A stretch of DNA of 64,000 bases from Methylobacterium nonmethylotrophicum (GTDB lineage: Bacteria > Pseudomonadota > Alphaproteobacteria > Rhizobiales > Beijerinckiaceae), in NCBI RefSeq assembly GCF_004745635.1, contig NZ_SRLB01000005.1, forward strand, positions 248,001 to 312,000, given 5' to 3'. The notes below the pieces were generated by a model. That model was given only the letters and a program-made list of their open reading frames with translations, was not told the origin of the DNA and made no database searches. Shown here in pieces: positions 54,318 through 56,643 of this stretch (positions are counted from its first letter, which is position 1; the number at the start of each line of letters is the position of its first letter). The translations under genes were made by a program, and so were the position numbers.

Positions 54318-54342
54318 GGAACAATGTGCCGCCTCACCGGTT
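54318..54342 (+). promoter_or_regulatory. EcfG-type promoter of the csbD gene
   Basis: GGAAC (54318-54322), 16 bases, GGTT (54339-54342), or 17 bases and GTT. One base differs from the perfect EcfG box (GGTT for CGTT). It points at the CsbD gene, whose start is 48 bases downstream, so a leader of normal length would result. Confidence 0.7.
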
Positions 54343-54389: not shown

Positions 54390-54593
54390 ATGAGCAGCAC
54401 AACCGACAAGATCAAGGGCCTCGCCAACGAGGCGGTCGGTAACATCAAGCAGGGCATCGGCAGCGCCACCGGCAACGAGAAGCTGCAGGCGGAGGGCAAG
54501 GCCCAGGAGCTGAAGGGAGAGGCCCAGAAGACCGCCGGCGACGTCAAGGACGGCATCAAGAACGCCGCCGACACGGTGAAGAGCAAGCTCTAA
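54390..54593 (+). CDS. CsbD family stress protein
   Basis: 67 residues. It is the typical small, polar helical CsbD protein: TDKIKGLANEAVGNIKQGIG and ATGNEKLQAEGKAQELKGE. In B. subtilis and many proteobacteria csbD is part of the general stress response; its molecular role is unknown. AGGAGCTTCCC precedes the ATG. The EcfG-type box upstream fits stress control. A hairpin follows 9 bases after the stop. Confidence 0.93.
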   Translation: MSSTTDKIKGLANEAVGNIKQGIGSATGNEKLQAEGKAQELKGEAQKTAGDVKDGIKNAADTVKSKL

Positions 54594-54717: not shown

Positions 54718-55089
54718 ATGAACAGGGACCAGATCGAGGGCGGCCTGCACAACCTCAAGGGGCGCGGTCAGACCGCCCTCGGCGCCGTTTCCGGCCGGGC
54801 CCGGCCGCAGGCGGAAGGGGCGCTCAACCAGGTCATCGGCGGCGCGCAATACGCCTATGGCCGCGGCCGTCGCGTCGCCGAGGAGCTGTCGCATGACGGT
54901 GCGGCGCTGGCCGGCGAGATCGAGAAGCGCGGGCGCCACGCCTATGCGCGCGGCCGCGAGGTCTACGGCGAGGCCCGCCACCGCGGCCGCAAGGCCCTGC
55001 GCCGCGCTGAGACGCATCCGACCGAGACGCTGCTCGCGGTCGCGGGCCTCGCCTTCGCGGCCGGCTGGTTGCTGAAGGGCCGCCGCTGA
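54718..55089 (+). CDS. CsbD-like protein with C-terminal membrane helix
   Basis: 123 residues. The start is CsbD-like (MNRDQIEGGLHNLKGRGQTA), the middle is rich in Arg/Gly/Glu (EIEKRGRHAYARGREVYGEA), and the end is a membrane helix (LLAVAGLAFAAGWLLKGRR) as in ElaB/YqjD proteins. It could tie a stress protein to the inner membrane. No EcfG box stands upstream. ATG 54718 is chosen because the MREPTETA extension is not CsbD-like. Confidence 0.75.
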   Translation: MNRDQIEGGLHNLKGRGQTALGAVSGRARPQAEGALNQVIGGAQYAYGRGRRVAEELSHDGAALAGEIEKRGRHAYARGREVYGEARHRGRKALRRAETHPTETLLAVAGLAFAAGWLLKGRR

Positions 55090-55244
55090 GGCCGGGACGC
55101 GGCGCCGCTGCCGGCATGGAGTGCCGCTTCCGCCACGCGGCGGCGCTTCGTGCTGCACTGCAGCATGAAGCGCCGGCTTCGCCCTCGCCTCCGGGCTGCT
55201 TATGGTCTAGCTTAGGGTCGTCCCCGCGCCAGCCGAACGACCCG

Positions 55245-56024
55245 ATGACCCAGAGCACGCCCCCAGGTCCGACCAAGGCCGCTCCGAGCAAGGCCGCTCC
55301 GACCACCGCTCCGACCAAGACCGCTCCTGCCCTGCCCCTCTCGGTGCAGGAGCACCTCGGCGAGCGGCTTCGCGCCCACTACGCGGCGGTCGAGGAGGTG
55401 GAGGCGCCCGCCGCCTTCGCGGAGCTTCTCGCGCGCCTCGAGCAGGCGCTCGCCATCATGGGCGCGCCGAAGAAGGACGGGTTCCGGGACGAGCTGCTGG
55501 CGGCGGCCCCCGCCTTGCGCCGCTTCGCCCTGACGCTCACCGCCAACCCCGCCCGCGCCGACGACCTGGTGCAGGACACGATGCTGAAGGCCTGGCAGAA
55601 CCGCGACCGGTTCGAATCCGGCACCAACCTCAGCGCGTGGCTGTTCACGATCATGCGCAACGCCTTCTACTCGGAGCACCGCAAGCGCGCCCGCGAGGTC
55701 GAGGACGGCGAGGGCGTGTACTCGGCCCGCCTGACCACCGCTCCCAACCAGGGCGACCGCCTCGACGTGCAGGACCTGCAGGCGGCGCTCAACAAGCTGG
55801 TGGCCGAGCAGCGCGAGGCCCTGATGCTGGTTGCCGTCGGCGACCTCTCCTACGAGGACGCCGCCGTGCTGATGCAGTGCAAGGTCGGTACCGTGAAGAG
55901 CCGGGTCTGCCGGGCCCGCGACAAGCTCGCGGAACTCCTGGGCTATACCGGCGGCGAGCTCGGCGCCGACCGGCTCACCCGCTCCGCCATGGAACACGCC
56001 GGCGCGATGGTGCTCGACGGCTGA
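55245..56024 (+). CDS. EcfG-type sigma factor with N-terminal NepR-like anti-sigma domain
   Basis: 259 residues. After a Pro/Ala/Thr/Lys-rich tail (1-32) comes a short NepR-like helical stretch at 36-69 (LGERLRAHYAAVEEVEAP, AFAELLARLEQAL), which fits the NepR pattern G..LR..Y..V...P..F..LL..L. A sigma-2 region follows at about 81-150 (ARADDLVQDTMLKAWQNRDR, AWLFTIMRNAFYSEHRK) and sigma-4 at 175-232 (LSYEDAAVLMQCKVGTVKSR). NepR is normally a separate protein that holds EcfG inactive until phosphorylated PhyR displaces it. Here both appear to be one chain, so inhibition would be in cis or between copies. No phyR lies in the window. EcfG boxes at 25.1 and 54.3 kb are possible targets. Confidence 0.75.
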   Translation: MTQSTPPGPTKAAPSKAAPTTAPTKTAPALPLSVQEHLGERLRAHYAAVEEVEAPAAFAELLARLEQALAIMGAPKKDGFRDELLAAAPALRRFALTLTANPARADDLVQDTMLKAWQNRDRFESGTNLSAWLFTIMRNAFYSEHRKRAREVEDGEGVYSARLTTAPNQGDRLDVQDLQAALNKLVAEQREALMLVAVGDLSYEDAAVLMQCKVGTVKSRVCRARDKLAELLGYTGGELGADRLTRSAMEHAGAMVLDG

Positions 56025-56643
56025 GGGCTCCTCGCCGAGGGATGGGCCGAAAGTCCTAACTCTCATGGTCCATGACGGAACATCACGGCACCGCGCCTGT
56101 TTCGGCTTGGTGGGCGCGGCCATGCGTGGCGGTCAGTGTCGACACGTCACGGGCAGGACGTGAAGAGACAGTTTGCCCAGGGGCAGGCAAGACGATGGCC
56201 AGACCTCGCACGATCCGGCCTCGATGCAGAAGCAGACTTCCTGGCCGGGATATGCGATAACGTCATGACATCCGTCACATGGCCGGATGAGTGTTCTTCC
56301 TCTTGCATGCTGCATGTCCGCGAGATGATCGGTCGACTGACGCGCCGGCGTCGATGCTCCGCCTTGTTCTCTGCCGCATGCGGGATCTGACCGAGAGCTC
56401 AAGTGCCTAGGACGTAAGGACAGTTGCGCCAGTGTTGCGATACCGATAAACCCTTCTTCAAATAATCCTAGGCATTCCTTGTCGGACATCGTTGATCTTC
56501 TGCGCCGGGCACAAGACGCGAATTGAGCGGGACTGAATGTTGCCCGCTGGGAAAGCGCGAGATCGGTGAACTGGAATAGGCCATAATCAATAGAGAAATG
56601 TCAGAAAAACGACAGACGAGAGGCTATCCTACCGTTAGATCAA
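56025..56643. other. Gene-poor AT-richer stretch, about 620 bases
   Basis: Between the sigma factor and the Crp-type gene. GC content is lower than around it, and open frames on both strands (e.g. 56133-56489 minus) lack sensible start sites and protein-like composition. It probably carries the promoters for the Crp gene. It could be a remnant of transferred DNA, but no repeat or integrase supports this. Confidence 0.5.

Follow-up and report, generated by a model that had tools for sequence, protein, structure and literature searches.

We found that the window, a 64,000-nucleotide stretch of Methylobacterium nonmethylotrophicum DNA, carries on its forward strand (55245..56024) a gene whose product is confirmed by sequence matches as a complete EcfG/ECF15 sigma factor with an N-terminal NepR-like helix pair. 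We give roughly even chances to the reading that this extension is a weak intramolecular NepR, which folds onto its own sigma domains, competes with free NepR and tunes the sigma factor rather than locking it. The sequence-only reading had treated the fusion as a departure from the known scheme, in which it was overtaken by the literature: the architecture is already known for the Methylobacteriaceae and was described in 2016 (PMC4814048, as far as its available text goes). According to the same text, EcfG proteins of Methylobacterium extorquens bear at the N-terminus a NepR-like extension some 55 residues long, which among the Alphaproteobacteria is confined to the Methylobacteriaceae and whose role was called unknown by its describers. 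EcfG1-6 of strain AM1 thus resemble the window protein in having this extension before an ECF15 sigma factor, and their genome resembles the window genome in holding multiple paralogues (PMC4814048, in part).

With the architecture in print, the gene is no discovery in itself. What our analysis adds is a fused copy in 111 of 111 genus genomes, a one-change split of the sigma-part tree, the contrast between helices and loop, and a constraint weaker than that on free NepR. The role of the extension bears on why Methylobacterium keeps several EcfGs with different NepR sensitivity. PMC4814048 cites a still earlier account of the extension (its reference 4), reportedly Francez-Charlot 2009 in PNAS.

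A NepR-like segment precedes a complete sigma factor

The gene was delimited by its Pfam matches, its match to 5uxx_A and the starts of its orthologues, and it encodes 259 residues followed by a stop codon at 56022-56024. In the alignment, the start at 55245 is common to the window gene and 18 orthologues, with an MTQ or MTD start. An alternative ATG for the frame lies upstream at 55116; because the 19 loci align at 55245 and a conserved promoter-like element lies between the two ATGs, we consider 55245 to be the right start. Sigma region 2 (55479..55694, forward strand; residues 79-150) and sigma region 4 (55770..55946, forward strand; residues 176-234) were placed by the Pfam matches to Sigma70_r2 (PF04542, residues 88-150, 68.9 bits) and Sigma70_r4_2 (PF08281, residues 177-228, 55.7 bits) and by the match to 5uxx_A, which is the closest solved sequence (E 6.7e-51) and represents the sigma factor bound to NepR in the complex from Bartonella quintana. 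The sigma chain of this canonical NepR-EcfG pair is 52% identical to the sigma part of the window protein, and the pair consists of two chains, whereas the window protein is one chain.

The NepR-like segment (55332..55457, forward strand; residues 30-71) was placed by PF18557, by predicted helices at residues 32-49 and 56-71 and by conservation. PF18557 matched the whole protein at residues 35-68 with 29.2 bits (E 6.9e-7) and residues 26-77 alone with 32.8 bits, both above the Pfam cut-off of 25.7, while the NepR chains of 5uxx and 4qic matched residues 32-69 only weakly (E 0.078 and 0.12). The earlier claim that one frame joins a NepR-like helix pair to a complete EcfG-type sigma factor therefore stands, with the 29.2-bit NepR match and both sigma regions present; the check proposed for it, a profile search of the N-terminal residues, returned the match above cut-off, and the helices on which the claim had also been staked are predicted. 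The residues of the pattern G..LR..Y..V...P..F..LL..L read before sigma region 2 are there, but V49 and P55 are separated by five intervening residues rather than three. The two closest orthologues (P0001 and P0002) are named 'NepR family anti-sigma factor' in public records, a name that presumably comes from the short N-terminal segment and misleads, the protein being a complete sigma factor.

Other sigma factors also carry an anti-sigma element on the same chain, among them members of ECF36 and IutY/ECF243, which in the available part of PMC8999054 involve membrane helices or proteolysis; the element of the window protein is a short NepR-like segment.

The fusion occurs throughout the genus

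A fused copy is present in all 111 genus genomes searched, as judged in most of them by the extent of the match rather than residue by residue. The listed match starts at query residue 28 or earlier, hence within or ahead of the extension, in 110 of these genomes, and the remaining one (G346) is also fused. Where the best match contained an internal stop (G336, G343, G349 and G359), the DNA showed that the stop is the gene end, and all are fused. The window copy is a paralogue for which 19 of the 111 genomes, counting the one it comes from, have a full orthologue (at least 80% identity), or 20 with one cut piece; by this measure it differs from the AM1 EcfG1-6 set. According to named records, the fusion occurs in Methylobacterium, Methylorubrum and Microvirga.

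A search of 60 wider-family genomes gave, from outside the genus, two matches that started at residues 18 and 23 (G036 and G032, respectively). G032 is a true fusion, Microvirga-like in form, while a fusion in G036 was rejected on its DNA, where nepR is separate and a stop precedes ecfG. Two further family matches started at residue 39 without the NepR motif (G042) and at residue 53 (G019). Across the class, 45 of 240 genomes had a match, our own included. The only one outside the genus that covered much of the segment (G073, starting at residue 21) was rejected for its stop and lack of a NepR motif, and the matches in G205 and G212 started at residues 49 and 52.

In Mesorhizobium, Rhizobium, Aminobacter and others, matches run from residue 7-35 onward among the 80 loci retained out of 573. 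A fusion in these genera, as well as in Nitratireductor, Martelella, Aurantimonas and others, was rejected on the DNA of 12 such loci, since the genes are separate and adjoining. At 11 of the 12, nepR shares the frame of ecfG and a lone stop codon parts the two; at the twelfth, in Martelella (L095), a motif search found no nepR. The one-frame order of nepR, stop and ecfG is seen in other Hyphomicrobiales at L074, L078, L080-L082, L084, L085, L088, L089, L096 and L125. A single in-frame stop means that the loss of one stop could have produced the fusion, and also that translated searches mistake such gene pairs for fusions.

In a sigma-part tree of 90 rows, one change separates the fused (33 rows) from the unfused (57 rows), which fits a single fusion event, as far as a quick tree without bootstrap or inferred root can indicate; the branch of the unfused group had an SH-aLRT of 92 in an earlier version. 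For this tree two Methylobacterium loci were treated separately: L064 was dropped because it is cut by a contig end and L119 was recoded as fused (E replaces G39); and L102 and L134 were omitted because they gave no reading frame by the rule used.

The helices are conserved and the loop is eroded

We then compared the fused homologues, of which 349 of 365 proteins were kept (16 were left out for gaps). G39 and L42 were each kept in 341 of the 349, Y/F46 in 335 and L/I/V65 in all 349. Since these helix positions are kept in 335-349 of 349 homologues, the likeness of the segment to NepR is, by its residues, more than chance similarity. The loop between the helices behaves differently. In the window protein it reads EAPAAF, not the QP[VI]P of the genus's free NepRs, and among the 349 fused proteins P55 occurs in 189, P53 in 31 and PxP[DE]R in four. 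QP[VI]P was found in 30 of 30 free NepRs, none with sigma motifs in frame; these were the best-scoring NepR loci, a selection that favours the canonical loop, and the motif is a trait of the genus's free NepRs rather than a published family definition. In sequence terms, then, the fused segment combines conserved helices with an eroded loop, QPxPDRF in the free NepRs of the genus, and by this loop the window protein differs from the canonical pair.

Selection on the segment is intermediate. Over 19 loci, the N-tail had a dN/dS of 0.58 and the NepR-like segment one of 0.40, against 0.10 in sigma region 2 and 0.05 in sigma region 4 (19 of 20 loci were counted, the window's included, with one left out at a contig end; L199 and L200 are near copies). 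In the same seven genomes and over 39 codons each, the fused segment had a dN/dS of 0.38 versus 0.18 for the core of free NepR. Because the helix positions are kept and dN/dS lies between those of free NepR and the N-tail, the segment is maintained, though under looser constraint than free NepR.

These values bear on the possibility that the extension is a leftover, kept for folding or stability and without a regulatory role. Its dN/dS of 0.40 is well above that of the sigma domains, its loop and tail are variable, and only one of the six fused copies of the genome, the window's, exceeds the Pfam NepR cut-off. However, G39, L42, Y/F46 and L/I/V65 are kept beyond the needs of an idle tail, and in the available part of PMC4814048 the extension alters NepR binding; we regard the leftover account as unlikely. 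The combination of kept helices, eroded loop and a constraint between free NepR and the N-tail leaves a testable choice between a shield, a lock and a leftover.

The extension may dock on its own sigma domains

The published binding data give the extension a possible function. Within the accessible sections of PMC4814048, only extension-less EcfG1 bound NepR in vitro, and in two-hybrid assays only extension-less EcfG1 and, more weakly, EcfG5 did so (section 21). This makes an in-cis action of the NepR-like extension, as the sequence-only reading had supposed, plausible, as binding by extension-less forms only is expected if the extension covers the NepR site. In vivo, NepR interacts with both EcfG1 isoforms, of which one is shorter by just the first 14 residues (section 17 of the same source), so that any shielding would be incomplete. 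The reading of a weak intramolecular NepR joins this published masking with helices that are kept, a loop that is lost and the loss of about half of the constraint. The extension would dock weakly, in cis, on the sigma factor of the same chain, the docked form would compete with free NepR for the sigma factor, and each paralogue would thereby gain its own sensitivity to free NepR.

A stricter form of in-cis action, and the idea behind the sequence-only reading, is an autoinhibitor: the extension would prevent the sigma domains of its chain from engaging RNA polymerase until it is removed by phosphorylated PhyR, as a one-chain partner switch. The conserved NepR-type helices and helix residues, the phyR gene present in the genome and the published masking of the NepR site (PMC4814048, in part) agree with it. 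Against it, free NepR's QPxPDRF loop has mostly disappeared, the constraint is weaker than on free NepR, and AM1 EcfG2, an extension-bearing form, is described as apparently constitutively active in the Discussion of PMC4814048, which makes a full lock opened by PhyR less likely. Structure prediction, described next, also gave no such arrangement, and we judge the autoinhibitor to be quite unlikely. Its extended version, according to which fused EcfGs are one-chain switches whose NepR helices clamp sigma2/sigma4, phosphorylated PhyR removes the clamp and loop erosion sets paralogue-specific PhyR thresholds, seems to us very unlikely.

AlphaFold models of the chain alone, built with 116 and 144 sequences, gave the two helices at residues 32-49 and 56-71, with pLDDT block means over residues 31-80 of 72 to 90 in the first model and 81 to 95 in the second. 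The NepR-bound arrangement of sigma2/sigma4 was not seen in either model: pTM was 0.41 and 0.52, with no confident domain arrangement, and across both sigma domains the two models deviated by 16 to 19 A rmsd from 5uxx, in which NepR is bound. NepR chains were absent among the listed fold matches of the models, whose aligned ranges start at residue 52 at the earliest.

Residue couplings were calculated with 233 of 245 proteins (12 were left out for gaps). R43-E191 and L30-L228 each reached a z of 6.5, above the shuffle maximum of 5.4, and Y46-T97 reached 4.9, below that maximum; L30-L228 rests on very few changes and was not used. Inter-domain couplings were not enriched in this set, with 14 in the top 50 versus 18.1 expected if uniform and 24 in the top 100 versus 36.1. 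With the 349 proteins, the strongest coupling (4.8) was below the cluster-shuffle maxima at 70% (5.0) and 80% (5.9), and the mean of the top 20 (3.67) was above the maxima at 60% (2.78) and 70% (3.44) and below that at 80% (3.87). Of the 266 rows with a basic residue (R/K) at 43, 261 have an acidic one (D/E) at 191; of the 83 with a non-basic 43, 16 have a non-acidic 191. Tree-aware sign tests of R43-E191 gave a median p of 0.125 and 0.25. The coevolution signal for docking is suggestive at best.

Taken together, we counted in favour of the weak intramolecular NepR the profile match, the predicted helices, the conserved positions, dN/dS, the 43/191 pairing and the masking in the available text of PMC4814048; counted against it were the pTM and rmsd of the models, the unenriched couplings, the sign-test p values and, from the same text, the binding of NepR by EcfG1 isoforms in vivo.

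A probable general-stress neighbourhood

Upstream of the fusion gene lie a csbD gene (54390..54593, forward strand; 67 aa, PF05532 67.7 bits, cut-off 40) and, directly before the fusion gene, a second CsbD-like gene (54718..55089, forward strand; 123 aa), whose PF05532 score of 30.8 bits is below the cut-off of 40. By the criterion used for the EcfG/ECF15 promoter type (GGAAC-N16,17-CGTT-type), an EcfG-type site, GGAAC-N16-CGGTT, was identified at 54318..54342 on the forward strand, where it starts 72 bases ahead of the ATG of csbD. Chance alone would give 1.03 occurrences of the bare pattern per window, but sites of this kind occur upstream at 16 of 19 orthologous loci, counting that of the window, and their spacers vary; none is present at L199, L200 and L201, which are the three loci without a detected CsbD-like frame. 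As the site is kept at 16 of 19 loci and missing where the CsbD-like frame is missing, the neighbourhood is likely part of the general stress response, and csbD next to the fusion gene is a likely, putative EcfG target.

No EcfG-type site was found directly before the fusion gene itself, a trait that it shares with AM1 EcfG1-6; in the consulted part of PMC4814048 (section 17), the M. extorquens ecfG genes are likewise without such a site directly upstream. A promoter-like element, TTCGCC-N17-TATGGT followed by CTAGCTT, lies at 55178..55206 on the forward strand within upstream sequence conserved at 19 loci. Either TGGTCTAGCTT or TGCTCTAGCTT occurs upstream of the start at 19 of 19 loci, the window's included, where it overlaps TTCGCC-N17-TATGGT; this count covers TGGTCTAGCTT/TGCTCTAGCTT and not the TTCGCC half of the element. 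TTCGCC-N17-TATGGT is likely a putative housekeeping promoter of the fusion gene. The fusion gene would thus be read from a likely housekeeping promoter, with the upstream csbD as a likely EcfG target.

Downstream of the fusion gene we observed another EcfG-promoter-like site, GGAAC-N17-TGTTT, at 56077-56102. The other 18 orthologous loci have no equivalent at the same distance (three of the 18 have one elsewhere within 700 bases), and for this reason the site is perhaps there by chance.

Separate nepR and phyR genes elsewhere in the genome

The sequence-only reading had noted that no nepR or phyR is a neighbour of the gene. This holds for the neighbourhood and the window's contig, where profile searches found no further NepR or PhyR match, but not for the genome (7.83 Mb in 102 contigs), in which the proposed search for separate genes located both. 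phyR is at C39:26179 (86.6 bits), and nepR adjoins it divergently on the opposite strand at C39:25774 (56.9 bits). No ecfG is listed beside phyR on contig C39, only nepR itself, and the absence of ecfG beside phyR is common to AM1 (PMC4814048, in part) and the window genome. An unfused nepR-ecfG pair lies on C1 (C1:90495-91210; L002 and L019), with the nepR match at 91112-91210 and the ecfG match at 90495-91019; the stop codon of one gene overlaps the start codon of the other in the letters ATGA, and six fused copies are present in the same genome. The AM1 EcfG1-6 set differs from the window genome in this pair. The six fused EcfG copies are the window's and those on C24, C38, C1:215703, C25 and C21. 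In the genome search the window's copy scored 32.2 bits against the NepR profile and the others 24.9, 23.4, 15.5, 13.4 and 13.1 (cut-off 25.7). If the extension is a weak intramolecular NepR, PhyR control would act mainly via free NepR, whose genes lie in other parts of the genome.

The extension might instead act in trans, as a decoy or cross-inhibitor that binds PhyR or further EcfG proteins. Two NepR homologues of M. extorquens co-precipitate PhyR and show no EcfG binding in two-hybrid assays (PMC4814048, in the part available), indicating that NepR-type modules can serve PhyR alone. Nevertheless, the data of this analysis contain no sign of a trans partner, and we give this explanation a slim chance.

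NepR-like segments were also observed on other kinds of chains. A hybrid histidine kinase of the genus, with PAS, HisKA, HATPase and two receivers (L174 and L182), has a NepR-like tail, SLAEIGRQLR..YA....EPVPG.LQGLI, directly after the last receiver. In our own genome the match is at C32:38752-38847 (L182; 17.2 bits), at the end of an 806-aa open frame, and the other loci with this tail are L172-L176 and L178-L181. Nine hybrid-kinase loci exceeded the NepR cut-off in a six-frame search (26.9 to 31.8 bits), including L174, whose whole protein scored 25.6 bits, slightly below 25.7. Receiver helix 5 may account for part of the match. Among the papers listed by a literature search, we found no mention of 'NepR domain' or 'C-terminal NepR'.

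A NepR-like segment also precedes a receiver-like domain on one chain at C16:51287-51385 (L183, in our own genome), at L184:770-1381 and at L177. The 204-aa open frame of L184 matched NepR with 25.9 bits and Response_reg with 45.6 bits, while L183 scored 29.1 bits for NepR in one search and 25.3 in another, its receiver half having no Pfam match. This NepR-receiver chain is the mirror image of PhyR, which joins a sigma-like part to a receiver.
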